NCBI RefSeq assembly: GCF_027944115.1
Contig: NZ_JAPJZI010000001.1
Coordinates: forward strand, 992,001 to 1,056,000
Direction of reading: 5' to 3'
DNA: 64,000 bases
Source of the DNA: Hoeflea prorocentri
GTDB taxonomy: Bacteria > Pseudomonadota > Alphaproteobacteria > Rhizobiales > Rhizobiaceae
Positions within the stretch are counted from its first letter, which is position 1; each line of letters starts with the position of its first letter. This document shows positions 8,908 to 46,581 of the stretch, piece after piece. Position numbers and translations under genes: made by a program. The notes below the pieces were generated by a model. That model had not been told where the DNA came from, ran no database searches, and saw nothing but the letters and a program-made list of their open reading frames with translations.

Positions 8908-8929
8908 GGCGATGCCTATACCCCAAAAC

Positions 8930-8955
8930 TCAAAAGGCGGCCATCCGGCCGCCTA
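8930..8955 (-). terminator. Terminator or attenuator between the corrinoid protein and DUF1638 genes
   Basis: AGGCGGCC (8935-8942), loop ATCC and GGCCGCCT (8947-8954) give an eight-base stem, followed on the minus strand by a short TTTTG. It would separate high expression of the corrinoid protein from its neighbour. Confidence 0.65.
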
Positions 8956-8982
8956 TGGATGTGTACAGATTGACACAAAATT

Positions 8983-9684: not shown

Positions 9685-10025
9685 CGGCGTTCCCTCGAGG
9701 CTAGCGATTGTCTCGCCTTTTTTGAACCACGTAAGTGCTTATGCTGACAAGTGTTATGAGGAAAAAACATAAGCTGTGGCTTCTTAAAAACGACGCCACG
9801 CGATCTGAAAAGCGACCAACGGATAACAGTTGCGGTTGGGTGGGCGCGGATCGGTGGCCTGTCCTGTCGCCAGAGCGTCACGGCTTGGCGCATAGAGAAA
9901 GGCAGCGAAAGGGCTGTGGGCTAGCATGAATGGGGATGGTTTGCTGACGCTGGTCGGCCGCGCGAGGCGAGAAAAAGACTGTTGCGATATCATGGATTGT
10001 GCCAGGGGCACGAAAGGTAACCGGT
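9685..10025. promoter_or_regulatory. Divergent control region of corrinoid protein and MttB-type methyltransferase
   Basis: 341 bases without a gene. On the corrinoid gene side lies GGAAAAAACATAAGCT (9760-9775), nearly identical in reverse complement to a site upstream of proX (16,758). TTAAAAACGACGCCA (9784-9798) matches a site upstream of the virulence-factor gene. CTTATG (9739-9744) and GTTATG add further half-like repeats. An AraC/GlxA-type regulator would fit, but no regulator is shown to bind. Confidence 0.45.
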
Positions 10026-29092: not shown

Positions 29093-30166
29093 ATGCAGGG
29101 ACAGAAAATTCCCGCGACTGTGATTACCGGATTCCTTGGTGCCGGAAAGACCACAATGATCCGCCACCTGCTCAGCAAGGCAGACGGGAGACGCATTGCG
29201 CTGATCGTCAACGAGTTCGGCGATCTTGGCGTGGACGGTGATGTGCTGAAGGGATGCGGCGCTGAAAACTGTACGGAAGACGATATTGTCGAGCTGACCA
29301 ATGGCTGCATCTGCTGCACCGTTGCGGACGACTTCATACCGACGATGGAAAAACTCCTGGACCGGGACGAAAAGCCTGATCACATCGTCATTGAAACCTC
29401 CGGTCTCGCCTTGCCCCAGCCTCTGGTCGCCGCCTTTAACTGGCCGGGCATCAAACCGCGTGTCACCGTCGATGGCGTGATCACTGTTGTGGACAGTGCG
29501 GCTGTGGCCGATGGCAGGTTCGCCGAGGATCACGAGCGGCTCGATGCGCAACGCAGGGACGACGATGCGCTGGATCACGAAAGCCCGCTTGAAGAACTGT
29601 TTGAAGATCAATTGACCGCGGCTGACCTGATTGTCCTCAACAAGGCGGATCTGATTGACGATACACGTCTTGAAGCGGTTCGCAGCGATGTCGCGGTGCG
29701 GTCGAAGCGCAGCCCGGCTATGGTCACGGCCAAAGGCGGTGAGGTTCCGCCTGCTGTCCTTCTGGGGCTTGGCATGGAGAGCGAAGCCGATATCGCAAAC
29801 CGCAAGTCGCATCATGAACGCGCGCATGATGCCGCGCATGAGGCTGGTGAAGATCACCACCACGATCATGACGAGTTTGACAGTTTTGTTGTTGAGGCCG
29901 GTGCGATCGCCGATCCGGACCGGTTTATCGAACAACTGAAATCCATCATATCGGATCACGACGTGCTGCGGCTGAAGGGCTTTGCCGATGTGCCGGGCAA
30001 GCCGATGCGGCTTGTGATCCAGGCCGTCGGGACCCGTATCGATAGCTATTTCGACCGGCCCTGGTCGGTGGGCGAGGTGCGAGGCAGCCGGCTGGTTGTC
30101 ATCGGCCTTCATGATATCGACAAATCCACTATAGAAACGGCCATCCGGCAAGCGGCCGGCGGCTGA
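29093..30166 (+). CDS. cobW: CobW, GTP-dependent cobalt chaperone
   Basis: 357 residues. G3E GTPase: P-loop VITGFLGAGKTTMIRHLL, metal-binding NGCICCTVADDF (CxCC), ETSGLALPQPLV and NKADLID. A histidine-rich stretch HHERAHDAAHEAGEDHHHDH (residues ~240-260) is a metal-binding loop, and the CobW C-terminal domain follows (RLKGFADVPGKPMRLVIQAV). It is thought to load cobalt onto CobN for the chelatase step. It lies directly upstream of cobN, nine bases apart. Confidence 0.95.
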   Translation: MQGQKIPATVITGFLGAGKTTMIRHLLSKADGRRIALIVNEFGDLGVDGDVLKGCGAENCTEDDIVELTNGCICCTVADDFIPTMEKLLDRDEKPDHIVIETSGLALPQPLVAAFNWPGIKPRVTVDGVITVVDSAAVADGRFAEDHERLDAQRRDDDALDHESPLEELFEDQLTAADLIVLNKADLIDDTRLEAVRSDVAVRSKRSPAMVTAKGGEVPPAVLLGLGMESEADIANRKSHHERAHDAAHEAGEDHHHDHDEFDSFVVEAGAIADPDRFIEQLKSIISDHDVLRLKGFADVPGKPMRLVIQAVGTRIDSYFDRPWSVGEVRGSRLVVIGLHDIDKSTIETAIRQAAGG

Positions 30167-30174
30167 GAGACGAT

Positions 30175-33100
30175 ATGCATCTGCTGCTGGCGCAAAAGGG
30201 TACGATCTCCGACAGCGATGAGGCCGTCGATCTCGGCCAGTCGCCGGGCGACATTGTTTTCCTCAGCGCCGCCGACACGGAGCTTGCAAGCCTCGCAGCC
30301 GCGCAGGCAGGTCTCACCTCCTCGGCGCCGACACTGCGCCTTGCCAGCCTCATGACGCTGCGCCATCCGATGTCCGTTGACAGTTATGTCGAGCGGACGG
30401 CCAAACATGCGCGGCTGATCGTCGTGCGCGCATTGGGCGGCGCGAGCTACTTTTCCTATGCGCTTGAATGCCTGCACAGCTGTGCCGTGGCCAACGGCAT
30501 TGCCATGGCCGTATTGCCAGGCGACGACAAGCCGGATGACGGCCTTTCTTCGTTTTCGACCATGTCCGAAGGTGATGTTGAAGCGCTATGGCGTTATCTG
30601 GTTGAGGGCGGGGCGGCAAACACCGCGTCCTTTCTCACTTATTGCGCATGGCTTCTGGGCCGCGCCGACAAACCTGCCTCGGCAGTTCCTCTGCTCAAAT
30701 CCGGTCTTTGGTGGCCTGGGCTGGACACCCCGGCGCTGGCCGATATCGTCACGTCCGGAAATGAGCGGCCCGTCGTGCCGATCTGTTTTTACCGGGCGCT
30801 TGTGCAAAGCGGTCAAACCCAGCCGGTCGAGGCGCTTGTCAGCGCGCTGCAGGGCGAAGGCGTTCAACCGTTGCCGATTTTCATTTCGAGCCTGAAGGAT
30901 CCTGTGTCTGTCGCCACAGTGGAAGCCGTTTTCGGCGAATGTCCGCCTGACGTTGTTATCAATGCAACGGGGTTTGCGGTTTCCGCACCCGGCGGCGCGC
31001 GCAAGCCAACAGCTCTGGAAGCAACCGGAGCGGTCGTTCTTCAGGCCATATTTTCAGGATCCACCCATGAGACCTGGTCAGCATCCGCGCAAGGTCTCAG
31101 CGCCCGCGATCTGGCGATGAACGTCGCATTGCCGGAGGTTGATGGCCGTGTGCTCAGCCGAGCCGTGTCGTTCAAGTCTGCAGCCTCCTTTGATGAAAAG
31201 GTCGAAGCCAATATCGTTACGCATGTCGCAGAGCCGGATCGGGCCTTGTTTGTCGCCCGCCTTGCGGCCAATTGGGCATCCCTGCGCCGGGGCAAACCGG
31301 TAGAGCGCAGGGTTGCGCTCATTCTTGCCAACTATCCGAACCGGGACGGCCGGCTGGGAAACGGCGTCGGTCTTGATACGCCGGCGGGGACGATCGAAGT
31401 TCTTACAGCGATGGCGGCTGCCGGTTACGACGTTTCCGCACTGCCCGACGATGGCAACGTTCTGATGGATGTGCTGATGGAAGGGCCGACTAACGCCGCC
31501 GTGGATGCGCGTGCGATCCGCGAGACCATCAGCCGGACAGATTACCTTCAATTTTTCGATCAACTGCCGGAACCTGTGAGACGAGCCGTCAGCACCCGCT
31601 GGGGTGCGCCGGACGAGGATCCGTTTTTTGTGGGTGACAAAGAAGGCGGCCGGTTCGCCTTGCCGTTGATGCGGTTCGGCAATGTGATGGTCGGTATCCA
31701 GCCGGCGCGGGGCTACAATATCGATCCGAAGGATAGTTATCACTCACCCGATCTGGTGCCGCCGCACGGCTATCTGGCCTTCTATGCATTCTTGCGGACC
31801 TCGTTTGAAGCCGACGCAGTTGTCCATATGGGCAAACACGGCAATCTTGAATGGCTGCCCGGCAAGGCGCTCGCCCTGTCGCAGGATTGCTACCCGGAAG
31901 CCGTCTTTGGCCCCGTTCCGCATCTCTACCCCTTTATCGTCAACGATCCGGGTGAGGGGACACAGGCCAAGCGGCGGACATCGGCAGTGATTATCGATCA
32001 CCTGACACCGCCGCTGACAAGGGCCGGGAGTTACGGGCCGCTGAAGGATCTGGAAGCGCTGGTCGATGAGTATTACGAGGCGGCGGGCAGCGATCCGCGC
32101 CGGTTGCGGCTGCTGAAAGCGCAAATTCTCGATCTGGTGCGCGATATCGGGCTCGACAGCGATGCCGGGATCGCTACGGGAGACAGTGACGAGGCAGCGC
32201 TGGAAAAACTCGACGCCTATCTGTGCGATCTGAAGGAAATGCAGATACGCGACGGGCTTCACATTTTCGGTCGTTCTCCGGAAGGACGGTTGCGGGACGA
32301 CCTGATATGCGCCCTGGCGCGGGTTCCGCGTGGCATGGGCGAGGGGGGCGATGCCAGCCTGCAACGGGCGATTGCGGATGATCTGCAGCTCGGTTTCGAT
32401 CCGCTTGATTGCGCCATGGCGTCACCCTGGAGCGGTTCGCGCCCGCAATGGCTTCTGGACCTTTGCTCCGATCCGTGGCGCACGGCGGGCGACGCCGTTG
32501 AACGTATCGAACTGGCGGCACAGGAACTTGTGTCCGGCCGCAGGGAATGCCCTGCTGAGTGGACTGCGACGCAGCAGGTTCTGGAAGGTGTCAGTCAGGT
32601 GCTGGAACCAGCTTTGCGCCGCTGCGGAACGGCAGAGCTGGAGGGCTTGCTTTTGGGTCTCTCGGGGCGCTTCGTCGAGCCTGGGCCATCGGGTGCGCCG
32701 ACGCGCGGGCGGCCCGATGTCCTGCCGACCGGCCGCAATTTCTATTCCGTCGACAGCCGTAGCGTGCCGACGCCGGCTGCCTGGGAACTGGGCAGGAAAT
32801 CGGCAGAACTGCTTGTTGCCCGCTATACGCAGGACCATGGCGAATGGCCGACCTCTTTCGGTCTTACGGCGTGGGGCACCTCGAACATGCGTACTGGCGG
32901 GGATGATATTGCCCAGGCACTTGCGCTAATCGGCGCAAAGCCGGTGTGGGACAATGCCTCGCGCCGGGTGACGGGATATGAGGTCGTTCCGCTGGCGCTG
33001 CTCGACCGGCCGCGCATTGATGTGACGCTTCGCGTATCAGGCTTTTTCCGCGATGCGTTTCCGGAGCAGATTGCACTGTTCGACCGGGCGGTGCGGGCGA

Positions 33101-33939
33101 TTGGCGTGCTGGAAGAGGATGCTTCGGACAACCCCATTGCTGCCCGTATGAAGGCCGAACGTCAGGCCCTGGTGGATGATGGTGTGGATGAGCAACTTGC
33201 ATCCGAGCGCGCCGGATACCGTGTCTTCGGGTCAAAACCGGGTGCCTATGGCGCGGGTCTTCAGGCCTTGATCGATGAAGGCGGTTGGGAAGGCAGGCAG
33301 GATCTTGCCGAAGCCTATCTGGTCTGGGGCGGTTATGCCTATGGTGCCCATGCGGAAGGCAGGGCCGAACGCAATGCCTTGGAAAAACGGCTCGGCACGG
33401 TTGAGGCGGTGGTGCAAAACCAGGACAACCGGGAGCACGATCTGCTCGACAGCGACGATTATTACCAGTTCGAAGGCGGCATGACGGCTGCCGTTGAAGC
33501 GCTGTCCGGCAACCGGCCATCGGTTTTCCACAATGATCATTCGCGGCCTGCAAAGCCGGTGATCCGTACACTTGAAGAGGAAATCGCCCGGGTGGTGCGC
33601 GGCCGCGCGGTTAATCCGAAGTGGATCGACGGCGTTATGCGCCATGGTTACAAGGGCGCGTTTGAGATTGCGGCCACCGTCGACTATCTCTTCGCCTTCG
33701 CCGCGACAACGGGCGCGGTCCGCGACCACCATTTCGAGGCCGTCTATCAGGCCTTTATTCTTGATGATCGTGTCCGCGACTTTATCGAACAGAACAACCG
33801 TCCGGCCCTGCGCGAAATGGCGGCGCGGCTGGACGAGGCGATCACGCGCGGGCTATGGGTGCCGCGGTCCAACTCCGCGCAGTTCGATCTGCGCGCGCTC
33901 TCGGGAACCAGTGAAGAAAGGCGGTCCGGACATGGCTGA
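30175..33939 (+). CDS. cobN: Aerobic cobaltochelatase subunit CobN
   Basis: 1254 residues, normal for CobN. Characteristic motifs: RVALILANYPNRDGRLGNGV, GFNIDPKD-like GYNIDPKDSYHSPDLVPPHG, VVHMGKHGNLEWLPGKALAL, IVNDPGEGTQAKRRTSAVII and near the end GHYKGAFEIAATVDYLFA-like GYKGAFEIAATVDYLFAFAA. It inserts cobalt into hydrogenobyrinic acid diamide together with CobS and CobT, which are not in the window. This is the oxygen-dependent route, consistent with an aerobic organism. Its end overlaps cobO by eight bases. Confidence 0.96.
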   Translation: MHLLLAQKGTISDSDEAVDLGQSPGDIVFLSAADTELASLAAAQAGLTSSAPTLRLASLMTLRHPMSVDSYVERTAKHARLIVVRALGGASYFSYALECLHSCAVANGIAMAVLPGDDKPDDGLSSFSTMSEGDVEALWRYLVEGGAANTASFLTYCAWLLGRADKPASAVPLLKSGLWWPGLDTPALADIVTSGNERPVVPICFYRALVQSGQTQPVEALVSALQGEGVQPLPIFISSLKDPVSVATVEAVFGECPPDVVINATGFAVSAPGGARKPTALEATGAVVLQAIFSGSTHETWSASAQGLSARDLAMNVALPEVDGRVLSRAVSFKSAASFDEKVEANIVTHVAEPDRALFVARLAANWASLRRGKPVERRVALILANYPNRDGRLGNGVGLDTPAGTIEVLTAMAAAGYDVSALPDDGNVLMDVLMEGPTNAAVDARAIRETISRTDYLQFFDQLPEPVRRAVSTRWGAPDEDPFFVGDKEGGRFALPLMRFGNVMVGIQPARGYNIDPKDSYHSPDLVPPHGYLAFYAFLRTSFEADAVVHMGKHGNLEWLPGKALALSQDCYPEAVFGPVPHLYPFIVNDPGEGTQAKRRTSAVIIDHLTPPLTRAGSYGPLKDLEALVDEYYEAAGSDPRRLRLLKAQILDLVRDIGLDSDAGIATGDSDEAALEKLDAYLCDLKEMQIRDGLHIFGRSPEGRLRDDLICALARVPRGMGEGGDASLQRAIADDLQLGFDPLDCAMASPWSGSRPQWLLDLCSDPWRTAGDAVERIELAAQELVSGRRECPAEWTATQQVLEGVSQVLEPALRRCGTAELEGLLLGLSGRFVEPGPSGAPTRGRPDVLPTGRNFYSVDSRSVPTPAAWELGRKSAELLVARYTQDHGEWPTSFGLTAWGTSNMRTGGDDIAQALALIGAKPVWDNASRRVTGYEVVPLALLDRPRIDVTLRVSGFFRDAFPEQIALFDRAVRAIGVLEEDASDNPIAARMKAERQALVDDGVDEQLASERAGYRVFGSKPGAYGAGLQALIDEGGWEGRQDLAEAYLVWGGYAYGAHAEGRAERNALEKRLGTVEAVVQNQDNREHDLLDSDDYYQFEGGMTAAVEALSGNRPSVFHNDHSRPAKPVIRTLEEEIARVVRGRAVNPKWIDGVMRHGYKGAFEIAATVDYLFAFAATTGAVRDHHFEAVYQAFILDDRVRDFIEQNNRPALREMAARLDEAITRGLWVPRSNSAQFDLRALSGTSEERRSGHG

Positions 33940-34570
33940 AAAGTCTGACAAGCTGAAAAACCTCTCTGAAGAGGAACTCAATGCACGCCATGCGGAGAAG
34001 ATGAAGAAGAAGAAAGCGGCCCGCGACAAGATCATCGCCACCAAGACCATCGAAAAGGGTTTGACCATCGTCCACACGGGCAAGGGAAAGGGCAAGTCCA
34101 CCGCTGCGTTCGGTATGATATTCCGGGCGATCGGCAATGATATGAAGGTTGGTGTCGTCCAGTTCGTCAAAGGCAAATGGGGCACCGGCGAGCGCAAGGT
34201 GCTTGAGGCCTTCCCCGATCAGGTGACGCTCGCCACGATGGGCGAAGGTTTTACCTGGGAAACACAAGACCGCCAGCGCGACATCGATGCGGCACGCCAG
34301 GCCTGGGAAAAGGCGAAGGAGATGATCCTCGACGACGAGCACCAGATGGTGCTGTGCGATGAGTTGAACATCGTGCTTCGCTACGACTACCTGCCGATCG
34401 ACGAGATCATCGAAACGCTGAAACAGAAGCCTGAAATGAAGCATGTGATCATTACAGGCAGGAATGCGAAAGACGAGCTCATGGACTTCGCCGATCTCGT
34501 GACCGAAATGGAAATGGTCAAACACCCGTTCCGCTCAGGCGTGAAAGCCCAGGTCGGTATCGAATTTTAG
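33932..34570 (+). CDS. cobO: Cob(I)yrinic acid a,c-diamide adenosyltransferase CobO
   Basis: 212 residues from the ATG at 33,932, overlapping cobN by eight bases. A basic N-terminal helix (MKKKKAARDKIIATKTIEKG) precedes the P-loop IVHTGKGKGKSTAAFGMIFR. VGVVQFVKGKWGTGERKVLE, MVLCDELNIVLRYDYLPID and VIITGRNAKDELMDFADLVT complete the family. It attaches the 5'-deoxyadenosyl group to cobalt. It is the last gene of the riboswitch-controlled operon; no clear terminator follows before 34,700. Confidence 0.96.
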   Translation: MAEKSDKLKNLSEEELNARHAEKMKKKKAARDKIIATKTIEKGLTIVHTGKGKGKSTAAFGMIFRAIGNDMKVGVVQFVKGKWGTGERKVLEAFPDQVTLATMGEGFTWETQDRQRDIDAARQAWEKAKEMILDDEHQMVLCDELNIVLRYDYLPIDEIIETLKQKPEMKHVIITGRNAKDELMDFADLVTEMEMVKHPFRSGVKAQVGIEF

Positions 34571-35623: not shown

Positions 35624-36382
35624 GTGAATTATCTGGGCTATCTGCGCGGGTTACTTGCCGCGATGAGCTTTGCCGTTCCGGCAGCCTACGCAGCGGACTC
35701 CCTGACCGTCACGACACTTGAATGGCCTCCCTATACGTCCGAGAACCTTCCCAAAGGAGGTGCCACCACCGAAGTGGTGCGCCAGGCTTTCGCCGCCGCG
35801 GGGCTTGACGTCAGCGTTGTGACGCTCCCGTGGAAGCGGGCCATTTCAATGGCCAAGGAAGACGCTAAATCCGTTGCATATTTTCCGGGTTATCACTGCC
35901 GTCATGTGGACGGATTTGTTGCCTCCGATCCGATCGGCAACGGGCCGCTGGGGTTTGCGGAGAATGTCAATTCGCCCGTAACCTGGGCGAATGTTGACGA
36001 TATTGGTGAGCAGAAGCTCAAGGTCGGCACGGTTCTTGGCTACGCCAACACGGATGAATTTGACGAGAAGGCCGGAACCGGCTGGATTCGTGCGATCCCG
36101 GCTCCGGACGATGTAACGAACCTGCGCAAGCTCGCCCGCGAGCGGATCGATATCGCCGTTATCGACAAGCTGGTCCTGTCCTATCTTCTGGCGACTGAAG
36201 ACTCGCTGAAGGATCTGAACGAGGTTCTGGTGTTCAACGAACGGCCGCTTGAGGACAAGACGCTTTATCTTTGTTTTAACGACGATGAAGACGGGCGTGC
36301 CATGCGTGACAAATTCAATGAAGGTCTTGCCAAGATAAACGTTGAGGGCGTCGTCGAGAACTATTTCGAAGACGAGTTCTGA
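35624..36382 (+). CDS. Periplasmic solute-binding protein (SBP_bac_3-like), putative sensor input
   Basis: 252 residues from a GTG at 35,624 with GGGGGGC upstream. Signal peptide 1-23 ends AAYAADS. The mature protein has TTLEWPPYTSENLPKGGATT, VVRQAFAAAGLDVSV, LPWKRAISMAKED and the second lobe LKVGTVLGYANTDEFDE, typical of family 3 binding proteins without an ABC transporter. Its TGA overlaps the ATG of the hybrid kinase (TGATG), so the two are translated together. The natural inference is that it binds a small ligand and signals to the kinase's periplasmic domain. Ligand unknown. Confidence 0.85.
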   Translation: MNYLGYLRGLLAAMSFAVPAAYAADSLTVTTLEWPPYTSENLPKGGATTEVVRQAFAAAGLDVSVVTLPWKRAISMAKEDAKSVAYFPGYHCRHVDGFVASDPIGNGPLGFAENVNSPVTWANVDDIGEQKLKVGTVLGYANTDEFDEKAGTGWIRAIPAPDDVTNLRKLARERIDIAVIDKLVLSYLLATEDSLKDLNEVLVFNERPLEDKTLYLCFNDDEDGRAMRDKFNEGLAKINVEGVVENYFEDEF

Positions 36383-39201
36383 TGGTTGATTCGACTGGCG
36401 GATCCACCGAGGACAGATCGGCAAATCCGGAACCTCAAGTGCGCAGCCGGTTTGGACGGTCCGTTCAGACCAAGTTTCTGCTTTACGTGGTGCCGCTCGT
36501 TCTTGTCTCGACGGTTGTTGTTTTCGGCCTTTTTGAATGGAATGCCCGCCGGTCTGCAGAGGAACAATTGCAGGGCAAGCTGGAAAAGCTTGCCGAGATT
36601 CAGAGCGCGGTGGTTGCAGAATCCCTTTGGAACGTAGCTGACGAGCAGATCAAGCTCATTCTGGCCGCCTTGCTGACTGACTCCGATGTCCTGGCAGCTG
36701 CCGTTTATGACGAGCGCGACAGGCTCGTTGCCGAGGCGGGCATGACCGATAAGTTCGATACGACGCGGTTTATCGCACAGGAGGATATTTTTTACGACTC
36801 AGGTGATCAGAAGATCAGAATCGGCTCGTTGCGCATTGCCCTTGCCGAAACCCGGCTGGGGGCGTTGGCGAGCGAACGCCTGGCGCTGGTCGTGCTCCTT
36901 GCGGGTATATTGCTCGTCGCAGTTGTTGCGGCGACCCTGACTGCCAACAGGCGGATCATTGGCCGGCCGCTGGCCCTGATGATGGAGTCCATCAACCAGC
37001 CCCGCTCCGGAGCGCCGCGAAAACCGGTTGATTGGAAGAGCGACGACGAGATCGGGCGGGTGGTGACGGCATTCAATGAAATGCAGGCGCGCCAGAACGC
37101 CTATGAGCAGCAATTGCGCGCCGCCAATGATGAGCTTGAGCGGCGTGTGCAGGAGCGGACCGCCGAACTGGTGGATGCAGAAGCAACGGCCCGCGAGGCA
37201 CGGGGACAGTTGACGGACGCCATCGCCAGTATTTCCGAAGGCTTTGCGATTTATGACGATAAGGACCAGCTGATTGTTGCCAACCAGCGCTACCGGGAAA
37301 TCATGCTTGGCGATGCGGAGGCGGAGTTGCCGGGCGGCACGCCTTATGTGGACCTTTTGAAGCGCGCCGCCGATTCCGGACGTTTTCCAAATGCGAAAGA
37401 AGATCAGGTATTGTGGATCGAGCGCCAGATCGGGCGGCATCGGGCAGCCGGTACCCCATACATTCAGGAACTGACCGGCAAGCAGTGGCAGCAGGTCAGC
37501 AATCGCCGGACTGACCAGGGCGGCACCGTTGCCGTGCATTCCGATATTACGGAAATCAAGCGCATATCCGACGAGCTCAAGAGCGCCAAGGATGCGGCCG
37601 AGGCGGCCAATGAGGCAAAGAGCGCGTTCCTGGCCACCATGAGCCACGAAATCCGCACGCCGCTGAATGGCATTATCGGGATGAGCACATTGCTCAACGG
37701 CACCGATCTTGACGACGAGCAGCGCGACTTCAGCGATACGATCGCAACCGCCGCGGACACATTGCTCACCATCATCAGCGACATTCTCGATTTCTCCAAG
37801 GTCGAGGCCGGTGCGCTTGAGCTTGAACGCACGCCGATGGACCTTGTCGAAACGGTCGAGTCGTCGGTGGAGCTGGTTGCCTCGAAAGCGGCCGAGAAGG
37901 GAATTGAGCTTGCCTGCCGGATCAATCCGGATGTGCCGGCAGCGCTTTTCGGCGATCCGGTTCGCCTTAAGCAGATCCTGATGAACCTTCTCAACAACGC
38001 AGTGAAGTTCACTGAAGTTGGCGAAGTGGTGCTGACGGTCTCCACCATGATGCCCGAGGCGGGGGAAACCCCGGGTGAGACAGCGCTTTTGACATTTGCT
38101 GTCCGTGACACCGGAATCGGCATTCCGGCGGACAGGATGGACCGGCTCTTCAAATCGTTCAGCCAGGTGGATGCCTCGACCACGCGGCGTTATGGCGGTA
38201 CCGGACTTGGCCTCGTCATCACCAAGCGTCTTGTTGAACTGATGGGTGGTGAGATCTCGGTCGAAAGCACGGCAGGCGAGGGCACGACCTTCACCTTCAC
38301 GCTGCCGGGCGAAGTCGCACGACTGCCGGACAGGGCGAGCCGAGAGACGCAGCTTTCAGCCATCCGCGGCAAACGGGTCCTGATTGTTGATGACAACCGA
38401 ACCAATCGTTTGATTCTCAATGAAAAATTCAGGTCCTGGGATTTGGTTCCACGGACTTGCGGCACGCCGGGAGAAGCACTTGAACTGATCAAAAACGGTG
38501 ATCTCTTCGACATCATCATCGTGGACTACAAGATGCCTGAAATGAACGGTTTCGAGTTCACGGCCGCGGTTCGCGATTTCCTCGGGGGCGAGGCGCCGCC
38601 AATGATCCTGTTCAGTTCGGTATCGCCGCTTGAAGATCGTTTCCGCGAGGGTGTGGCGGAGATGAATTATGCTGCATCGCTGACCAAGCCGGCCAAATCA
38701 GGCCAATTGCTGAGTGCGCTGGTCAGAACTCTTGCGCCGGATGTTGTTGCAACGGAGCCGCAAAAGGACGAGACGTCCAATGCCGAGATGGCGGAAGGGC
38801 AGGATCTGAGGATCCTTCTTGTCGATGACAATTCCATAAACCAGAAAGTCGGCCGCAAGATTTTGAAACGGCTCGGTTACGACCCGGTTGTTGTCAGCTC
38901 CGGTGTCGAAGCGATCGAAGCCTGCCAGAGCGACGAGTATCACATCGTCCTGATGGATATCGAGATGCCCGACATGGACGGCATCGCGGCGACCGGCAAG
39001 ATAAGATCGTTATTGCCGGAGGACCGTGTGCCTTACATCGTTGCGCTTACGGCAAACGCCATGAATTCGGAGCGAGAGAATTACCTGAAGTCCGGGATGG
39101 ACGATTATCTGAGCAAGCCGATTGACGTCGATGCTCTGACGGAGAGTTTGGCATCGGCAATGGAACTGAAGGAAAACAGAGCGGCCAGCCACACAGGATA
39201 A
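36382..39201 (+). CDS. Hybrid sensor histidine kinase with two receiver domains
   Basis: 939 residues. Membrane segment ~29-50 (FLLYVVPLVLVSTVVVFGLF), periplasmic part ~50-165, second segment ~167-190 (LALVVLLAGILLVAVVAATL), HAMP (~190-245), coiled coil, PAS-7-like domain (ASISEGFAIYDDKDQLIVAN), HisKA with phospho-His in FLATMSHEIRTPLNGIIGMS, ATPase domain (NLLNNAVKFTE, DTGIGIP, GGTGLGLVI). Two receivers follow: VLIVDDNRTNRLI with acceptor Asp in IIIVDYKMPEMNG, and ILLVDDNSINQKVG with VLMDIEMPDMDG. No DNA-binding output exists. Its neighbours are an upstream binding protein, an HPt protein and a receiver-transporter fusion, forming a complete relay. Confidence 0.93.
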   Translation: MVDSTGGSTEDRSANPEPQVRSRFGRSVQTKFLLYVVPLVLVSTVVVFGLFEWNARRSAEEQLQGKLEKLAEIQSAVVAESLWNVADEQIKLILAALLTDSDVLAAAVYDERDRLVAEAGMTDKFDTTRFIAQEDIFYDSGDQKIRIGSLRIALAETRLGALASERLALVVLLAGILLVAVVAATLTANRRIIGRPLALMMESINQPRSGAPRKPVDWKSDDEIGRVVTAFNEMQARQNAYEQQLRAANDELERRVQERTAELVDAEATAREARGQLTDAIASISEGFAIYDDKDQLIVANQRYREIMLGDAEAELPGGTPYVDLLKRAADSGRFPNAKEDQVLWIERQIGRHRAAGTPYIQELTGKQWQQVSNRRTDQGGTVAVHSDITEIKRISDELKSAKDAAEAANEAKSAFLATMSHEIRTPLNGIIGMSTLLNGTDLDDEQRDFSDTIATAADTLLTIISDILDFSKVEAGALELERTPMDLVETVESSVELVASKAAEKGIELACRINPDVPAALFGDPVRLKQILMNLLNNAVKFTEVGEVVLTVSTMMPEAGETPGETALLTFAVRDTGIGIPADRMDRLFKSFSQVDASTTRRYGGTGLGLVITKRLVELMGGEISVESTAGEGTTFTFTLPGEVARLPDRASRETQLSAIRGKRVLIVDDNRTNRLILNEKFRSWDLVPRTCGTPGEALELIKNGDLFDIIIVDYKMPEMNGFEFTAAVRDFLGGEAPPMILFSSVSPLEDRFREGVAEMNYAASLTKPAKSGQLLSALVRTLAPDVVATEPQKDETSNAEMAEGQDLRILLVDDNSINQKVGRKILKRLGYDPVVVSSGVEAIEACQSDEYHIVLMDIEMPDMDGIAATGKIRSLLPEDRVPYIVALTANAMNSERENYLKSGMDDYLSKPIDVDALTESLASAMELKENRAASHTG

Positions 39202-39226
39202 AGGTCGCCACAGAACGGGGGAAACA

Positions 39227-39577
39227 GTGTCGGACGATGTAATTGACCGCAACGCGCTCAAGCGCTTGCTGGACGTTATCGGCGGAGACCGTGACGACTT
39301 CGAAGAACTCCTCGAAGAGTTCGAGGAATCGACGCCGCAGACCTTGCAGAAGATGACGGAAGCTGCTCAATCAGCTGACCTTGATGCGCTGAGGATTGCG
39401 TCCCATAGCCTGAAATCCAATGGCAGGGATTTTGGCGCTGCTGCATTGGCCGCGGCCTGCGAGGCGCTGGAGCAAGCGTGCCGCGAGGGATCGGTTGACG
39501 ATCCGCAGGCGAGGGTGACGGAGATATCCGAGGAGCTGCAGCGCGCCCGCGCGGCGCTTGCGGGTGTCGAACTCTAA
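39227..39577 (+). CDS. HPt phosphotransfer protein
   Basis: 116 residues from a GTG at 39,227 with GGGGGAAA upstream. The phospho-accepting histidine is in ASHSLKSNGRDFGAAALAAA (residues ~64-83), the HPt consensus HxLKxxxxxxG. An acidic helix DRDDFEELLEEFEEST precedes it. It would carry phosphate between the hybrid kinase receivers and the receiver of the next protein. Its TAA overlaps the next ATG by one base (TAATG). Confidence 0.88.
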   Translation: MSDDVIDRNALKRLLDVIGGDRDDFEELLEEFEESTPQTLQKMTEAAQSADLDALRIASHSLKSNGRDFGAAALAAACEALEQACREGSVDDPQARVTEISEELQRARAALAGVEL

Positions 39578-41124
39578 TGAACGAGGCGCTCTCGACGTCT
39601 GCAGGCAAAGGCGCTCAAACCGCCGATGCTGCGCGGATTCTTGTGGTTGACGACAATAGTCTCAGTCGCAAGAAAATGCGGATGGCCGTCGAGAGCCTGG
39701 GACATTCCGCCGATGTTGCGAAGAACGGCCTGGAAGCGCTTGAAGCCCTGAAATCACAGGCGTTTGATGCTGTTCTGCTTGATATCGTCATGCCCGAGAT
39801 GGATGGCTTTGATGTGCTTGCCGCTATGAAGGCGGATGAGCGGATGCGTGATGTTCCGGTCATCGTGATTTCGGCTCTTGATGATGAGACGGAGAGCGTC
39901 GTCAAGGCCATCGAACTGGGCGCGGAAGACTTCCTGCCGAAGAATTTCGATCCGGTACTCCTGCGCGCGCGCGTCGAGAGTTCCTTGTCGAAGAAACGGT
40001 TCCGCGATCAGGAGCTGGAGTATTTCGGCCGTATCGAGCGTTTGACGGAAGCCGCCGAAGTGCTTGAAAGCGGCAGGTTCAATCCTGAAAGCCTTGAACT
40101 CGATGAACTTGCAAACAAGGATGATCCGCTGGGGCGGCTGGCCGCCGTGTTTCGCGGCATGGCCGGCGAGATCTATGAGCGCGAACTGAAGCTCAAGCGC
40201 GCGATCCACACCTTGCAGGGAGCGTTCCTCGTGATCGCCGTCGGTCTTGTGTGGGGTCTGACACCGGCGCTTTCCCGCATGGCGTCCGGCCTTGGATCGA
40301 ACCCCTTGGGTCTGGCCATCTGGGTCAATGGCATCGCCGCGGTGTTCTGCCTGGGGATTGCCGCCTACCGGGGAAAGCTTCCCAGGCTTAATTGCTCCCA
40401 ATTCATGTTCTTCGTTTACTGGGCGATCATAGCCGGCATCCTGCAGCGCATGACGACCTTTGTCGTCACCGAGCACGTCGAGGCGGCGATGTTGTCTTTG
40501 ATCGTCACGCTTCAGGGTTTCATGGTTTTTGCGTTTGCTGCCGTTACGCGCATGGAGAAGGCGACGCCCCGGCGTCTCGTCGGACTGCTCGTTGGCCTCA
40601 TAGGCGTGTCGCTTGTCCTGCTGACGCGATTTGACATGTCGAACGGCGCTCAAAGTGCGTGGCTGCTCTTTGCCATGCTGCTGCCGTTGCTCTTTGCCGT
40701 CGAAGCCCTGGTGCTTGCCGGAAAGCGCCCCGAACATGTGGATATCTTTGCCTCCGTGGGGCTGATGATGGGGCTGTCGGCCTGCATGCTTGCGCCGTGG
40801 GCCTATTTCAGCGGGGATCTCATGCCGCTGGGTCCACAGATCGGGCAGCTCGAAGTCCTTGTTGTCCTGATGGGCATTGTCGGGGCGGGATCGTTGCTAT
40901 TGGCCTTCCATCTGATCGCCACCGCCGGCGCGGTCTTCTACAGTCAAAGTGCCTACACCATGACGATCGCGGGTGTGGTCTGGGGCATGCTGTTGCTGAA
41001 TGAGGAACTGTCCGCGCTGGCCTGGATCGCCTTTGCAATCATCGCGATCGGGATGTATCTGGTCGAGCCGAAGGCCAGCGATGAAGAGTTGGTCATCAAG
41101 CGGTCTTTCAACGCCCGAGACTAA
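39577..41124 (+). CDS. Receiver domain fused to EamA/DMT-type membrane transporter
   Basis: 515 residues. Residues ~20-140 form a response regulator receiver: ARILVVDDNSLSRKKMRMAV, acceptor Asp in AVLLDIVMPEMDGFDVLAAM, and VIVISALDDE. A helical linker (~140-205, RFRDQELEYFGRIERLTEAA) follows. Residues ~205-500 carry about ten membrane segments in two EamA repeats (AFLVIAVGLVWGLTPALSRM; LLFAMLLPLLFAVEALVLAG; AGVVWGMLLLNEELSALAWI), a drug/metabolite transporter. There is no DNA-binding or enzymatic output. The start overlaps the HPt stop. The order suggests that phosphorylation directly gates or tunes a transporter. Confidence 0.9.
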   Translation: MNEALSTSAGKGAQTADAARILVVDDNSLSRKKMRMAVESLGHSADVAKNGLEALEALKSQAFDAVLLDIVMPEMDGFDVLAAMKADERMRDVPVIVISALDDETESVVKAIELGAEDFLPKNFDPVLLRARVESSLSKKRFRDQELEYFGRIERLTEAAEVLESGRFNPESLELDELANKDDPLGRLAAVFRGMAGEIYERELKLKRAIHTLQGAFLVIAVGLVWGLTPALSRMASGLGSNPLGLAIWVNGIAAVFCLGIAAYRGKLPRLNCSQFMFFVYWAIIAGILQRMTTFVVTEHVEAAMLSLIVTLQGFMVFAFAAVTRMEKATPRRLVGLLVGLIGVSLVLLTRFDMSNGAQSAWLLFAMLLPLLFAVEALVLAGKRPEHVDIFASVGLMMGLSACMLAPWAYFSGDLMPLGPQIGQLEVLVVLMGIVGAGSLLLAFHLIATAGAVFYSQSAYTMTIAGVVWGMLLLNEELSALAWIAFAIIAIGMYLVEPKASDEELVIKRSFNARD

Positions 41125-41243: not shown

Positions 41244-41278
41244 TTTAGGATTTTCTATATAGTATAGGAAAACCTAAA
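41244..41278. promoter_or_regulatory. Inverted repeat operator at the first ArsR gene
   Basis: TTTAGGATTTTCTATA (41,244-41,259) and TATAGGAAAACCTAAA (41,263-41,278) are an imperfect inverted repeat (13 of 16 positions) that overlaps the start codon. Autoregulation by the ArsR protein encoded there is likely. Confidence 0.6.
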
Positions 41279-41613
41279 TGATTCTAAGTCACGATTCGGC
41301 TTTTGCTGCCCTTGCCAACCCGGTTCGCCGCCAGATGCTGGATGAGTTGCTGGGCGGCAGTAAGACGGTCAGGGAGTTGGGCAGCGGCCATGACCTGACG
41401 CCGGGCGCGATCTCTCAGCATCTGAAGGTTCTGGAAGAAGCACAGCTTATCAAGCGTGTGGTAAAGGGCCGAGAGCACCACTGCGAGCTGTCGCCGGCCG
41501 GCCTTGATCCGGCCCTCGAATGGGTCGAGCGGCATCGGGCGTTTTGGAGGCAGAAACTGAGATCCTTCGGCGCCCATATCGACAAGGGTTCCGGCGGAGA
41601 GACCAATGGGTGA
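41278..41613 (+). CDS. ArsR family transcriptional regulator
   Basis: 111 residues of a winged helix repressor: FAALANPVRRQMLDELLGGS, LTPGAISQHLKVLEEAQLIK and VVKGREHHCELSPAGLDPAL. It lacks the metal-binding Cys pairs of ArsR/SmtB metal sensors, as is usual for members coupled to SRPBCC proteins. It overlaps the SRPBCC gene by eight bases and has a palindromic operator over its own start. The inducer is unknown. The second ArsR gene at 43,600 belongs to a similar module on the other strand. Confidence 0.9.
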   Translation: MILSHDSAFAALANPVRRQMLDELLGGSKTVRELGSGHDLTPGAISQHLKVLEEAQLIKRVVKGREHHCELSPAGLDPALEWVERHRAFWRQKLRSFGAHIDKGSGGETNG

Positions 41614-42070
41614 CGTTCCCGAAGACAATTACCGGGTCCATGAAAGCATGTGGTTCAATACCGATCGTGAGACGGCGTTTGCCGGCTGGACGGAACCGGA
41701 GGCCATTGCTTCCTGGTTCGGCCCGCCCGGCTACAAAGCCGAGGTTCTTGAACTGGACCTTGTGACAGGTGGGCGTTGGCGGTTTCGGATGGTTCCGGAG
41801 GCGGGTTGGCCATCGCATCATGCCGGTCGATATGTCGAGATAGTCCGGCCGGGCAGATTGGTGTTCACGTGGGAAAGCGAGGAGGACCTGCATCTGACAA
41901 ATGGGCGCGAGACTCTTGTCACCGTGACATTTGCAGAGGAGGCCGGCGGTGTGCGGATCGATATCATACATGAGCGATTGCCGGATCGATCAGCGAAGGA
42001 GGCGCTTTCCTACGGGTGGCGCAGCGGCATCGAACGTCTCGAGGACTGGCTCAGGAGGCTTGAAACATGA
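41606..42070 (+). CDS. SRPBCC (AHSA1-like) domain protein
   Basis: 154 residues with the helix-grip SRPBCC fold: WFNTDRETAFAGWTEPEAIA, SWFGPPGYKAEVLELDLVTG, GRWRFRM, GRYVEIVRPGRLVFTWESEE. AHSA1-type proteins bind hydrophobic ligands in a deep cavity; no reaction is known. It overlaps both the ArsR gene upstream and the GFA gene downstream, so the three form an operon. Confidence 0.88.
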   Translation: MGDVPEDNYRVHESMWFNTDRETAFAGWTEPEAIASWFGPPGYKAEVLELDLVTGGRWRFRMVPEAGWPSHHAGRYVEIVRPGRLVFTWESEEDLHLTNGRETLVTVTFAEEAGGVRIDIIHERLPDRSAKEALSYGWRSGIERLEDWLRRLET

Positions 42071-42536: not shown

Positions 42537-43148
42537 CTATTCACTCAATGCACGGTTCTGGTCTTCCTTCGTGTTGCGTCTGTAGACACTCATGATTGCG
42601 CCATTTTTACAGGCCTGCGATTTGACAAGCGAAAGCTGCGCCGAAGGGCTGTTTTGCCCGAATAGCCGCTTGCCTGATCCGACTGTCACCGGAAAGGTCC
42701 ATAGGCGGAATTCGTCGATCAAATCATGGGAAAGAAGGGTCTGGATGAGCTCCCAACTTCCGTGAATTTGCAAAAGCGGGCCATCTTCGTTTTTCAATCG
42801 CGAAACGGCATTCGCAATGTCGCCAGAGATCGCGACGGAATTGTTCCACGTCAGATCTTTCAGCGTCGACGTCACCACATATTTTCTGGCTGAATTCATC
42901 ATGCGCGCGGTCGGACTTTCTTCAGCTTCCGGCCAGTGGCCGGCAAAAAGCTCATAGGTTTTGCGGCCGAACAGCATGTCGTAGGGTACGGCCATGGCTT
43001 CCTTTTGCACCTGCTCCATAACATCTTCCCAGTAGGGAGCGGCCCAACCGCCTTTTATAAAGCCGCTGGACCGGTCTTCCTCGGGCATGCTCGGTGCCTG
43101 CATGACGCCATCCAGCGTAACGAAAGTCAAAATCGATAGGTCTCTCAC
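42537..43148 (-). CDS. Dihydrofolate reductase family (RibD C-terminal domain) protein
   Basis: 203 residues from a GTG at 43,148 that overlaps the SRPBCC stop (GTGA), with AAGGAG upstream; the frame is open to 43,223. The RibD-C/DHFR-like fold shows LTFVTLDGVMQAP, PYDMLFGRKTYELFAGHWPE, KYVVTSTLKDLTWNNSVAIS and IHGSWELIQTLLSHDLIDEF. These small oxidoreductases are often linked to ArsR/SRPBCC pairs. They are not shown to act on dihydrofolate. Confidence 0.85.
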   Translation of the reverse strand: MRDLSILTFVTLDGVMQAPSMPEEDRSSGFIKGGWAAPYWEDVMEQVQKEAMAVPYDMLFGRKTYELFAGHWPEAEESPTARMMNSARKYVVTSTLKDLTWNNSVAISGDIANAVSRLKNEDGPLLQIHGSWELIQTLLSHDLIDEFRLWTFPVTVGSGKRLFGQNSPSAQLSLVKSQACKNGAIMSVYRRNTKEDQNRALSE

Positions 43149-43603
43149 CGGTCGGTCTCCTTTTTCAGAAACCCTGCGAGAACGGTGAGGGTGCCCTCCC
43201 ATCCGTTGGCATGGATGGTGCATGCCGTGTCCGACGGGATTCCTTTGTGCGTAATGACAATTTCAGTCACGTCCGCCTTGTCGAGAAACTCGAACGTGAC
43301 TTCCATTGGTATGTTTTCAAGCGGATCCGGCGCTTGCCAGATCCATGTCATGGCAATGAGTTCGGGCGGTTCAATCCGCTGGAACACGCCGGCAACTTCC
43401 GGGTTTCGGCCGTCGGGCATAACGTAGCGGAGCCGAAACTCGCCGTTCGGTGTGAAGTCGAACGTCAGCGCTTCCACTGAAATATCCGTACTGGGCGTGA
43501 ACCATTGTTTAAGGAGCTCCGGCCGCGTGAAGGCCTTAAATATGCGTTCGCGCGGCGCTGCTATGTCACGGCGCACAATCAACGGGATGGGGTAATCCGT
43601 CAC
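43145..43603 (-). CDS. SRPBCC (AHSA1-like) domain protein, second module
   Basis: 152 residues: VRRDIAAPRERIFKAFTRPE, LLKQWFTPSTDISVEALTFD, GEFRLRYVMPDGRN, VTEIVITHKGIPSDTACTIH and the C-terminal helix GWEGTLTVLAGFL. The order ArsR, SRPBCC, DHFR-like on the minus strand mirrors the ArsR, SRPBCC, GFA order nearby. It overlaps its neighbours by four bases on each side. Confidence 0.9.
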   Translation of the reverse strand: MTDYPIPLIVRRDIAAPRERIFKAFTRPELLKQWFTPSTDISVEALTFDFTPNGEFRLRYVMPDGRNPEVAGVFQRIEPPELIAMTWIWQAPDPLENIPMEVTFEFLDKADVTEIVITHKGIPSDTACTIHANGWEGTLTVLAGFLKKETDR

Positions 43604-43950
43604 CGGCCGCCTCCTGCCTCATCATCTGAGCAAACAAATGCTTCCAGGCGTTCCAGCGTGCCTTCCCAGAATGTACGGTGTTCTGCTATCCAGTCCTCAG
43701 CCTCCCGCAGTGTCTTTGTTTGCAAGTGAAACCGGTGCACGCGTCCGACGATTTCACGACGGACCATGCCGGCTGCTTCGAGCACCTTGAGATGTTTGGA
43801 GATGGTCGGCTGGGCGACGTTGAAGGGTGCGCGCAACTGGTTGGCCGACAGAGCGCCATCGTGGGCCAGCATGGAAATCATCTGACGTCTGGTGCCATCA
43901 CCGAGTGCGTGAAAGGCGCGATCAAGCGCCGCTTGATATTGAATAGCCAT
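43600..43950 (-). CDS. ArsR family transcriptional regulator, second module
   Basis: 116 residues: ALDRAFHALGDGTRRQMISM, LRAPFNVAQPTISKHLKVLE, EIVGRVHRFHLQTKTLREAE. No metal-binding cysteines. A palindrome ATAGCCA-TG-TGGCTAT covers the start codon, distinct in sequence from the operator of the first ArsR. It leads an operon with an SRPBCC and a DHFR-like protein. Confidence 0.9.
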   Translation of the reverse strand: MAIQYQAALDRAFHALGDGTRRQMISMLAHDGALSANQLRAPFNVAQPTISKHLKVLEAAGMVRREIVGRVHRFHLQTKTLREAEDWIAEHRTFWEGTLERLEAFVCSDDEAGGGR

Positions 43951-44501: not shown

Positions 44502-45104
44502 ATGGGTTGGATTGCGGGGGGCCTGTGTGCCGATGTTCCGCCGGGCACGGTGGTGCCGATCTGTGTCGATGGTGTAGACCTCGCAGTCTGGTGCTCGCAA
44601 AAGGGTACCTTCAGCGCCTGGGGCGACCGCTGCCCGCACCGCGGCATGAGATTGTCCCACGGCTTTGTGCGGGGTGAAACGCTGTCCTGCATTTACCATG
44701 GATGGCAGTATGACGAAGCGGGAAGCTGCGCCTACATTCCGGCACACCCGGCGCTGACTCCACCGAAAACGATCTGCGCCAAAAGCTATTTGTGCAGCGC
44801 TAAAGACGGCGTTATCTGGGTTTCGCTTACAGAGACAACAAAAGAGCCTCCAGATATCGGAAACCGGAAACCCGTTCGGTCTCTTCCATTCGATTGTTCG
44901 CCAGGCGATCTTGGCCGTCTGCTCAAGACCAACCTTCATCCTGTTATTGTTGTCGGCGGCAGTTCCGATCTGGCTTTGGCCGTCCAACCGGTCTCCGATC
45001 GTACATGCATGGTGCACGCCCTTGCTGCCGAGGGCCACGATCCAAAAGCCGTCTCCAGACAGCTTGAAGACATGAGGCGTGCGTTTGAGGAACAGGCGGC
45101 ATGA
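44502..45104 (+). CDS. Rieske 2Fe-2S protein (separate Rieske component of an oxygenase)
   Basis: 200 residues; AGGAG lies nine bases before the ATG at 44,502. A complete Rieske motif is present: C44-P-H46 in WGDRCPHRGMRLSHG and C63-x2-H66 in LSCIYHGWQYDEAGSC. No mononuclear iron motif follows; the ~80-residue C-terminus (SDLALAVQPVSDRTCMVHAL) is unrecognised. The next gene encodes an oxygenase catalytic domain lacking a Rieske cluster, with a four-base overlap, so the two probably form one split enzyme. A reductase is missing from the operon. In NdmD of Pseudomonas an extra Rieske domain serves NdmC in the same manner. Confidence 0.85.
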   Translation: MGWIAGGLCADVPPGTVVPICVDGVDLAVWCSQKGTFSAWGDRCPHRGMRLSHGFVRGETLSCIYHGWQYDEAGSCAYIPAHPALTPPKTICAKSYLCSAKDGVIWVSLTETTKEPPDIGNRKPVRSLPFDCSPGDLGRLLKTNLHPVIVVGGSSDLALAVQPVSDRTCMVHALAAEGHDPKAVSRQLEDMRRAFEEQAA

Positions 45105-45937
45105 CGGGAAACGCCGAGAACCACTGGTATCCCGTAGCCATGCTGTCGGGGCTCACCGAGGCGCGAGAAACGCTCTTGCTCGGCCGGCAGATAACCGTCG
45201 GGCCCGGTGAGGATGTAGCATGGGCCAAATCCGCGGACGGGTCGCCCATGCCGGTTGTCGAGCGATTTGGCCATTTGTGGACTTGCCCGGGAGAACCGCG
45301 CAAGGATCTTTTCTCGATACCAGAAGCAGATGCGCCCGGCAGGCGGCTTGTGGATGTCGGCTCGGTCAAGGTCCGCTGTTCGCCGCTGAGAGCTGTCGAG
45401 AACTTTCTCGACATAGCGCATTTTCCCTTCGTTCATACGGATATCCTCGGCGCAGAACCCCATACCGAGGTCGAGCGCTATGAGGTGGAGATTCAGGACG
45501 ACACGGATGAGGTCTGGGCCAAGAAGGTCAAGTTTCACCAGCCGCAGGCGGCAAAATCGGCAACAACCGGGATTATGACCGAATATATGTATCGGGTCCC
45601 CGAGCCGACATGCTCGGTACTCTACAAGACTTGCCCGCCGAGGCCCGGCGAATGGGACATCATCACTCTTTTTGTGCAACCGCTGACGGAGGAGTGGTGT
45701 GAGGTCTGGCCATGGATGGCCCTTTATGACGACGAGAGCACCATGTCGGAGATGGTGAGTTTCCAGCAGATGATCTTCTTGCAGGACAGGTCAATTCTTG
45801 AAAATCAGATCCCCAGGAAGCTGCCGCTGGACCCTGGTATGGAGGTTCCCACCCAGGCCGATATGACATCGGTGGCGTATCGCCGGTGGTTGAAAAAGAT
45901 AGGCTTTGGCTACGGCGCGCAATTGGTGGCCGCATGA
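45101..45937 (+). CDS. Rieske oxygenase catalytic subunit without a Rieske cluster (NdmC-like)
   Basis: 278 residues. The opening NHWYPVAMLSGLTEARETLL is as in Rieske oxygenases, but the Rieske CxH/CxxH pairs are gone; only a remnant GHLWTCPGEPRKDLFSIPE is left. The mononuclear iron site is intact: N101, D104, H107 and H112 in ENFLDIAHFPFVHTDILGAE, with E234 in DRSILENQIPRKLPLD as probable third ligand. The family is that of vanillate and N-methyl demethylases. With the separate Rieske protein upstream and a GST downstream the set resembles NdmC-NdmD-NdmE. Likely reaction: oxidative removal of a methyl group from a methylated purine, inferred from the neighbours. Confidence 0.85.
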   Translation: MTGNAENHWYPVAMLSGLTEARETLLLGRQITVGPGEDVAWAKSADGSPMPVVERFGHLWTCPGEPRKDLFSIPEADAPGRRLVDVGSVKVRCSPLRAVENFLDIAHFPFVHTDILGAEPHTEVERYEVEIQDDTDEVWAKKVKFHQPQAAKSATTGIMTEYMYRVPEPTCSVLYKTCPPRPGEWDIITLFVQPLTEEWCEVWPWMALYDDESTMSEMVSFQQMIFLQDRSILENQIPRKLPLDPGMEVPTQADMTSVAYRRWLKKIGFGYGAQLVAA

Positions 45938-46581
45938 TCCTCCATGACTATGTACTGAGTGCCAGTTGCTACAAGGTCCGGCTCATGGCCGCGCTGCTGG
46001 GGCAAAAGCTCACCTTAAAGGCGGTCAACTTTCACCCGGCGCGGGAACACAAATCGCCCGAGATGCTGGAGCTCAATCCAGCCGGCACGCTGCCTGTTCT
46101 GGTCGATGGCGACGTCATCCTGACCGACAGTGTGGAAATCCTGCGATATATGACACGTGGTGTTCCGCAATGGCATACGGACGATGAAAGCTGGTTCGGC
46201 TTCGCAGCCACGCTGAACGATACGTTGGGTCTGGCGCGGCTGCATGACATACTAGGGTATGAGGCCGATATCGAGGATGCCAGGAAACAGGGCGTCGCAT
46301 CGCTTCGTTTTCTTGAAGCTGCCCTGGCGGATCGGCGCTTTGACGGTGGCATGTTCCTCACCGGACCAGATCCGACGATCGCTGACATCGTCTGCTTTCC
46401 CAACACTGCGCTCGCTCCCGATGGCGGTGTAAGCCTTGACCTTTATCCGTCCATCCGCCTGTGGATGCGCGCCATTCGATCATTGCCCGGATTTATCGAG
46501 ATGCCCGGCATTCATCGGCTGCATGAACTCTCGCCGGTTCCGCAGGCTCAAATATCTGTATCCGAAAGTGTTCCGTCATGA
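45934..46581 (+). CDS. Glutathione S-transferase family protein (NdmE-like position)
   Basis: 215 residues from the ATG at 45,934, overlapping the oxygenase stop (ATGA). Thioredoxin-like N-terminal domain: LHDYVLSASCYKVRLMAALL, FHPAREHKSPEMLELNPAGT, LPVLVDGDVILTDSVEILRY. The C-terminal helical domain has LTGPDPTIADIVCFPN. In Pseudomonas NdmE is a GST homologue that acts as a scaffold for the N7-demethylase rather than as an enzyme. Position between oxygenase and deaminase suggests the same here. Confidence 0.85.
   Translation: MILHDYVLSASCYKVRLMAALLGQKLTLKAVNFHPAREHKSPEMLELNPAGTLPVLVDGDVILTDSVEILRYMTRGVPQWHTDDESWFGFAATLNDTLGLARLHDILGYEADIEDARKQGVASLRFLEAALADRRFDGGMFLTGPDPTIADIVCFPNTALAPDGGVSLDLYPSIRLWMRAIRSLPGFIEMPGIHRLHELSPVPQAQISVSESVPS

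Follow-up and report, generated by a model that had tools for sequence, protein, structure and literature searches.

A receiver domain fused to an EamA/DMT carrier as putative output of a phosphorelay in Hoeflea prorocentri and other Alphaproteobacteria

In multistep phosphorelays, phosphate passes from a histidine of the kinase to an aspartate of the kinase receiver, then to a histidine of an HPt protein and lastly to an aspartate of the terminal receiver, and one HPt protein can feed several regulators. To our knowledge, described response regulators act via DNA, RNA, enzymes or protein contacts, and we know of no precedent for a receiver that acts, once phosphorylated, on a carrier within its own polypeptide. 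The LuxP-LuxQ-LuxU-LuxO relay of Vibrio resembles the locus described here, as it has a separate periplasmic binding protein on a hybrid kinase and a separate HPt protein; it differs in its last regulator, LuxO being a transcription activator, whereas the last regulator here is a membrane carrier. Binding proteins have been described to control the LuxQ, TorS, and LytS kinases (PMC6321045), and an assay of phosphotransfer from LuxP-loaded LuxQ to LuxU has been published (PMC5394107). A transporter domain within a two-component protein occurs in CbrA and CrbS (SLC5-STAC-PAS-kinase; PMC8871633), although that domain belongs to another family and sits on the kinase, at the input end, whereas that of the present locus sits on the terminal receiver, at the output end. 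Table 5 of an Azospirillum survey gives no transporter output class, although it holds unclassified entries (PMC4618731), and the domain tables of another study name receiver and EamA domains in separate rows (PMC12487129). Among the matches listed from the open-licence literature, no receiver-EamA or receiver-transporter system was described, in line with the initial annotation of this DNA, which knew of no characterised system of such a layout. The relay is of a known kind, with an output class that was not found described.

The window, i.e. the whole stretch of 64,000 nucleotides that was analysed, is part of the genome of H. prorocentri (5.04 Mb, two contigs). Four ORFs lie head to tail on its plus strand (35624-41124), with the following features:

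35624..36382, plus strand: solute-binding-protein-like protein, predicted to be periplasmic, 252 amino acids, with a GTG start and a signal-peptide-like N-terminus (SBP_bac_3 sub-threshold)
36382..39201, plus strand: hybrid histidine kinase, 939 amino acids (Pfam and hydropathy)
39227..39577, plus strand: HPt phosphotransfer protein, 116 amino acids (Hpt domain, 58 bits)
39577..41124, plus strand: receiver-EamA fusion, 515 amino acids, terminal response regulator with a carrier (Response_reg and EamA in a single frame)
39637..39975, plus strand: receiver domain of the fusion, residues 21-133, phosphoacceptor D69 (Pfam and alignment)
40003..40212, plus strand: HAMP-like helical linker of the fusion, residues 143-212, joined to alpha5 and TM1 in the model (alignment and AlphaFold)
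40213..41073, plus strand: EamA carrier part of the fusion, residues 213-499, two EamA repeats, ten helices in the model (Pfam, AlphaFold, Foldseek, and hydropathy)

The sequence bears out the four ORFs and both start/stop overlaps as initially placed, namely TGATG at 36380 between the binding-protein and kinase genes and TAATG at 39575 between the HPt and fusion genes; the kinase and HPt genes are 25 bases apart. Likewise, the reported absence of a DNA-binding output holds, as Pfam finds no DNA-binding domain within the four-gene unit, whose only response regulator gene is the fusion (ORFs and Pfam). A promoter and terminator scan listed no promoter-like site upstream of the unit; it returned four promoter-like sites in all versus 1.8 (sd 1.3) by chance, and eight terminator-like sites versus 6.3 (sd 2.5). 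Upstream of the unit lie CobN and CobO/BtuR cobalamin-synthesis genes (29093-34570), with a P-loop metal-chaperone-like gene, read from the sequence alone, ahead of them (29093-30166). On the other side, two ArsR-type regulator/AHSA1-domain gene pairs of opposite orientation lie close together (41278-42070 and 43145-43950), separated by one GFA-domain gene and one RibD_C-domain gene. A row of Rieske-domain, VanA_C-domain, GST, and amidohydrolase genes (44502-47960) looks like a catabolic cluster whose oxygenase has its Rieske part and its catalytic part encoded by separate genes.

All parts of a multistep phosphorelay are present, i.e. a kinase core with receivers, the HPt histidine, and the terminal receiver aspartate D69 (14/14 copies of the fusion). 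Pfam matches above cut-off in the kinase comprise PAS_7 (residues 282-394), HisKA (412-477), HATPase_c (524-642), and two Response_reg stretches, so that PAS, HisKA, ATPase, and both receivers of the initial domain reading were recovered, whereas its HAMP domain stays sub-threshold (21.4 bits, cut-off 25). Strong hydropathic membrane segments (32-50 and 167-185) flank the sensor part, with a weaker third one at 90-108. The Hpt domain of the HPt protein (residues 27-110) is above the Pfam cut-off, the phosphoacceptor-type histidine of its H-x-x-K-S motif is kept in 11/11 aligned HPt proteins, and LuxU is its best NCBIfam match (31.7 bits, cut-off 140).

The first protein of the unit had been read as a binding protein, a reading that holds in part. 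It scores below every Pfam cut-off (SBP_bac_3, 12.4 bits and E 0.13 versus 26.4 required) and reaches 26.1 bits against NCBIfam EhuB, with a cut-off of 190.9; its AlphaFold model is poor (pLDDT 41.7), and no solved structure related to it by sequence was found. A 72% identical protein is encoded at the same position in locus L060. In addition, the loci of genomes G1709 and G1713 encode weakly related proteins (24 and 30 bits, respectively, with the profile of the window protein), both of which pass SBP_bac_3, as do the binding proteins of genomes G322, G293, G616, and G1629. From its signal-peptide-like start and these weak relatives, the window protein appears binding-protein-like, weakly tied to a known family.

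The fusion itself was recovered as initially read, i.e. an intact receiver with its phosphoacceptor D69 in LLDIVMPEMDG and an EamA part in a single chain of 515 residues, with Response_reg (21-133; 92.4 bits) and EamA (two stretches; 69.5 bits) both above the Pfam cut-off. Three further copies, scanned singly, have both domains above cut-off in one intact frame each, and every one of the nine sequences in alignment A2 has a match to both families (E<=1). Besides the receiver, EamA is the only domain above cut-off, and it is not known as an output class of response regulators, for which a domain of a described class is usual although not obligatory. The two repeats above cut-off in Pfam and the ten helices counted in the AlphaFold model (pLDDT 77.9, pTM 0.56, four sequences) are those of an EamA/DMT carrier, and the earlier count of about ten membrane segments agrees with these ten helices and with nine segments by hydropathy. 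The loops taken as inside hold 15 K/R versus one in those taken as outside, and from this bias the receiver should be cytoplasmic. For the membrane part, Foldseek lists the triose-phosphate translocator, LicB, and 5i20 (the latter presumably YddG) as matches, which are stand-alone carriers; they share the fold and the two EamA repeats with the window carrier, whereas the latter has a receiver and a linker ahead of TM1. The receiver part matches RR468, PleD, and CheY-type structures, and a viral fold library returned generic EamA and receiver matches. PleD is also the best solved relative of the receiver by sequence; however, it has a diguanylate cyclase output that makes a second messenger, whereas Pfam finds no enzyme domain in the fusion.

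Fourteen intact copies of the fusion from 12 lineages were aligned, without the broken copies and without additional Mesorhizobium records that are nearly identical; copy G1624a was read from an internal codon. Five receiver residues (the acid pair D25 and D26, with D69, S99, and K122) and two glutamates of the EamA part (E327 and E476) are invariant among them. Sequence varies more in the carrier than in the receiver: mean pairwise identity is 0.56 in the receiver, 0.47 in the linker, and 0.41 in either EamA half. Furthermore, broken copies occur in G616 (frame), G1648 (N-terminus missing), and G1624 (third copy, in two pieces). Both observations would suit a vestigial or accidental fusion, with a carrier that is inactive or an anchor only and transport that does not respond to phosphorylation. 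This reading is nevertheless regarded as very improbable, as none of the 14 intact copies has lost either EamA half or its conserved glutamates, the model contains a complete carrier fold, and dN is low versus dS in the carrier (0.137 and 1.42, respectively, between the window genome, G000, and genome G003). Per part of the protein, the same pair gives dN values of 0.14-0.17 and dS values of 1.4-2.3, the latter near saturation.

The segment between both domains, initially described as a helical linker, is helical in the model and is conserved in most copies, with the pattern LGRLA-x-VF-x-x-MA and YERE. Its likeness to HAMP is weak: it misses the Pfam HAMP cut-off (15.8 bits and E 0.018 versus 25 bits; 2/9 members match at E<=1), and hhalign against eight kinase HAMP stretches gave E 0.007 over 27 columns with a probability of 5%, a coiled-coil control giving E 0.033. 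It is thus best described as conserved and weakly HAMP-like. In the model, a helix leaves the receiver (126-165) and, after a short connector, a second helix (184-238) becomes TM1; coupling would likely follow this helical path, which connects alpha5 with TM1 by way of the linker. Conservation of the linker in most copies and the helical link, short connector aside, are what conformational coupling expects, and they argue against a constitutive carrier that the receiver merely places, stabilises or multimerises, so that phosphorylation would determine where or in what quantity it occurs and leave its transport cycle unaffected. The degenerate linker pattern of the second-type copies G1624b and G1659b weakens this argument, and a single-domain response regulator has been described to contact a membrane-linked polysaccharide-synthesis enzyme (PMC12802240). 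All in all, a constitutive carrier is judged improbable, albeit less so than a vestigial fusion.

The fusion was found in 12 other alphaproteobacterial genomes, two of which have a broken or truncated copy only, and on three Mesorhizobium plasmids. The draws of genomes overlap, and few candidates were scored per genome under strict limits; hence, no summed frequency is given. At the level of the genus, the fusion occurs in 2/8 genomes (the window genome and G003, 79% identical). In the family draw (1e-35), 7/394 genomes match, 5/394 near full length (G000, G003, G073, G322, and G293), while G290 and G357 match by their receiver only and carry cyclases. In the order draw (1e-45), 12/397 genomes match, with both parts only in the window genome and in G616, whose frame is broken; in the class draw, 13/385 match, with both parts only in the window genome, the long frame of G1029 having EamA without a receiver. 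The phylum draw (1e-60) returned 2/299 genomes, i.e. the window genome and G1341. Within the family of G1341, 8/394 genomes match, seven with the fusion (that of G1648 lacking the N-terminus), and G1713 with a receiver-linker protein without EamA. Draws around G322, G293, and G616 returned the centre genome only (1/9, 1/4, and 1/11, respectively). Among 72,556 plasmid records, four match (1e-30), three from Mesorhizobium with the fusion (43% identity), annotated as 'response regulator', and one from Rhizobium with the receiver part only. By gene content, G1624 corresponds closely to a MAG of Brevirhabdus, a Rhodobacterales genus, and G073, from the family of the window genome, to a MAG named 'Hyphomicrobiales bacterium'. 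A genome-wide pattern scan, which used receiver motifs and whose misses are uninformative on the distribution of the fusion, had two fusions by query coverage, L059 and L060, among the 80 loci listed. The fusion is rare, with 5/394 genomes in its own family and 7/394 in that of G1341. Two objections foreseen in the initial annotation are answered by these data. A sequencing error, or a missed stop or start, was rejected, since the fusion recurs in other genomes and plasmids at 38-79% identity and no frame break separates receiver and transporter here; nor are receiver and transporter always separate genes in homologues, the fusion being present in the 12 other genomes and in Mesorhizobium.

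The genes next to the fusion were compared in 14 lineages, i.e. 13 genomes, the window genome included, and Mesorhizobium (flanks of two of the three plasmid records read), using profiles from the unit's own proteins for the neighbours and Pfam for the window. Histidine kinase and HPt genes adjoin the fusion in 13/14 lineages, as judged for HPt with a profile of seven rows, among which the G073 row is in the wrong frame (its frame is right in the comparison of 11 HPt proteins); in G322 and G293, the binding-protein gene sits between them. As a control, neither an HPt gene nor a fused receiver was found near any of 13 EamA-only relatives (L144-L156; all EamA-only matches of the order and class draws, some loci being cut by contig ends), with a kinase gene about 2 kb away in L152. 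The exception is G1648, where a binding-protein gene and a kinase that is split over two overlapping frames are followed by a stretch of 1,386 bases (L180, 7685-9070) and a fusion without its N-terminus, with no profile match for HPt in the locus. This stretch is unannotated, occupies the expected place of the HPt gene and the first part of the receiver, and recurs in identical, inverted form later in the locus; G1648 appears to carry a copy of the unit that a mobile element has disrupted. It is virtually certain that the architecture and the recurring unit are real.

A binding-protein gene is present in 12/13 lineages with judgeable flanks, G073 ending at a contig edge, and none was seen in the Mesorhizobium stretches opened. 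Three kinds occur: the window type (G000, G003, G1624, G1659, and G1648), the SBP_bac_3 type (G322, G293, G616, G1629, and G1709, the latter on the opposite strand), and the TRAP-type DctP (G1341 and G1418). The Mesorhizobium kinase has four GAF stretches. As the input thus consists of three kinds of binding protein or of GAF domains, while HPt and receiver-EamA stay, the input arm appears exchangeable. The co-occurrence with three upstream genes that had been proposed for checking was accordingly seen for kinase and HPt, whereas the binding protein and the sensor part are exchangeable; the constant core is HK-HPt-REC-EamA. In addition, distances among kinases, HPt proteins, and fusions correlate over 11 loci (r 0.80-0.83, species relatedness uncorrected; G616, G1648, and G1624 left out), with 0/5000 permutations as high, which fits joint inheritance.

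Several receiver-EamA genes occur near one HPt gene in two genomes, two of them in G1659 and three in G1624. The latter lie around a single binding protein-kinase-HPt set (L060 7698-16381, the same locus as L179), the third in two open pieces. This arrangement fits parallel outputs of one relay, and it suits these better than several feedback sensors, as would be expected if the transporter were a sensor. In that case, EamA would report its occupancy or flux to its own receiver and alter the phosphorylation lifetime, feeding back via HPt on the kinase and on other regulators, with the receiver-carrier as input and phosphate sink. The fused transporter domain of the CbrA kinase, whose signalling role is debated (PMC8871633), and the lack of any other response regulator gene in the four-gene unit speak for such a sensor. 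However, input is already provided for by the binding protein or the GAF domains, a protein that follows HPt stands where an output is expected, and cyclases accompany most of the closest receivers outside the group. A sensing transporter is therefore considered unlikely, although less so than the two readings weighed above. As a related observation, G1713 has a binding protein, a kinase with fused HPt, and a 245-amino-acid protein with a receiver and a HAMP-like linker but without EamA (L184 1729-6046).

Regarding its origin, the EamA parts of the 14 fusions form one clade versus 18 other EamA rows (support 100/97). Their receivers fall in a group of 15 rows (support 86/94), the 15th being the broken G616 fusion (L157); the two changes and the clade test (p-AU 0.166) refer to 14 rows, L157 not being labelled as a fusion, and the non-fusion rows in both trees were hand-picked. 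In an unresolved fork, this group joins the receiver-cyclase proteins L158 and L061, the receiver-kinase protein L062, L063 (a receiver protein without a second Pfam domain), and the G1713 receiver-linker protein. Regulators with a receiver and a class III cyclase are alike in that L158 and L061 are among the nearest receivers and in that L161 and L162, where the receivers in HK-HPt loci come with cyclases, share the gene order HK-HPt-regulator; they are unlike in their soluble Guanylate_cyc output. A linker common to these regulators and the fusion was rejected, as the linker profile has no match to them despite the near receivers. In L062, from an Ignavibacteriae MAG, a related receiver is fused to a histidine kinase core (8771-9958) and adjoins a hybrid kinase with HPt. 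The most economical reading of these trees is a single fusion event, in which a carrier would have replaced another output behind an HPt-served receiver, followed by a spread of the fusion between Hyphomicrobiales and Rhodobacterales.

Taken as an output, the fusion may work as follows. A first step would consist of the binding protein docking on the periplasmic part of the kinase, thereby shifting its kinase/phosphatase balance; the tie seen between these proteins is gene adjacency and the overlap of their genes. Secondly, phosphate would pass from the HisKA histidine to the aspartate of a kinase receiver, to the HPt histidine, and to D69 of the receiver-carrier, further targets of the window HPt protein being possible. 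Thirdly, phosphorylation of D69 would alter the pairing of the receiver, and alpha5, via the linker into the first membrane helix, would convey this change to the carrier, switching transport on or off. That phosphorylation gates transport in this way is considered probable, although the carrier part could instead act as a sensor or anchor without transport. Lastly, the carrier may move a small polar metabolite of the amino-acid or carboxylate type, more likely outward. Any statement on substrate or direction is doubtful: a substrate deduced from the neighbourhood was rejected, since the genes around the unit vary from locus to locus, and NCBIfam matches of the carrier are all far below cut-off.

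Flux would thus come under post-translational control by the relay, with joint switching of the receiver-carriers wherever one relay has several. The reading that is favoured, if by a small distance over even chances, is that of a transporter as response-regulator output: phosphorylation of the fused receiver would gate a secondary carrier, an outside signal would set flux quickly without transcription, and genomes with several such carriers would have a post-translational carrier regulon. If true, a receiver on a complete secondary carrier would represent a new output class and a natural signal-controlled transporter. Whether a phosphorelay can gate a carrier directly has become a testable question, for which the family offers useful comparisons: its sensors are exchangeable, paralogous carriers can lie close to a single relay, and cyclases are the output of related receivers. 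The coupling from receiver through linker to TM1 could be dissected and perhaps reused for transport control.
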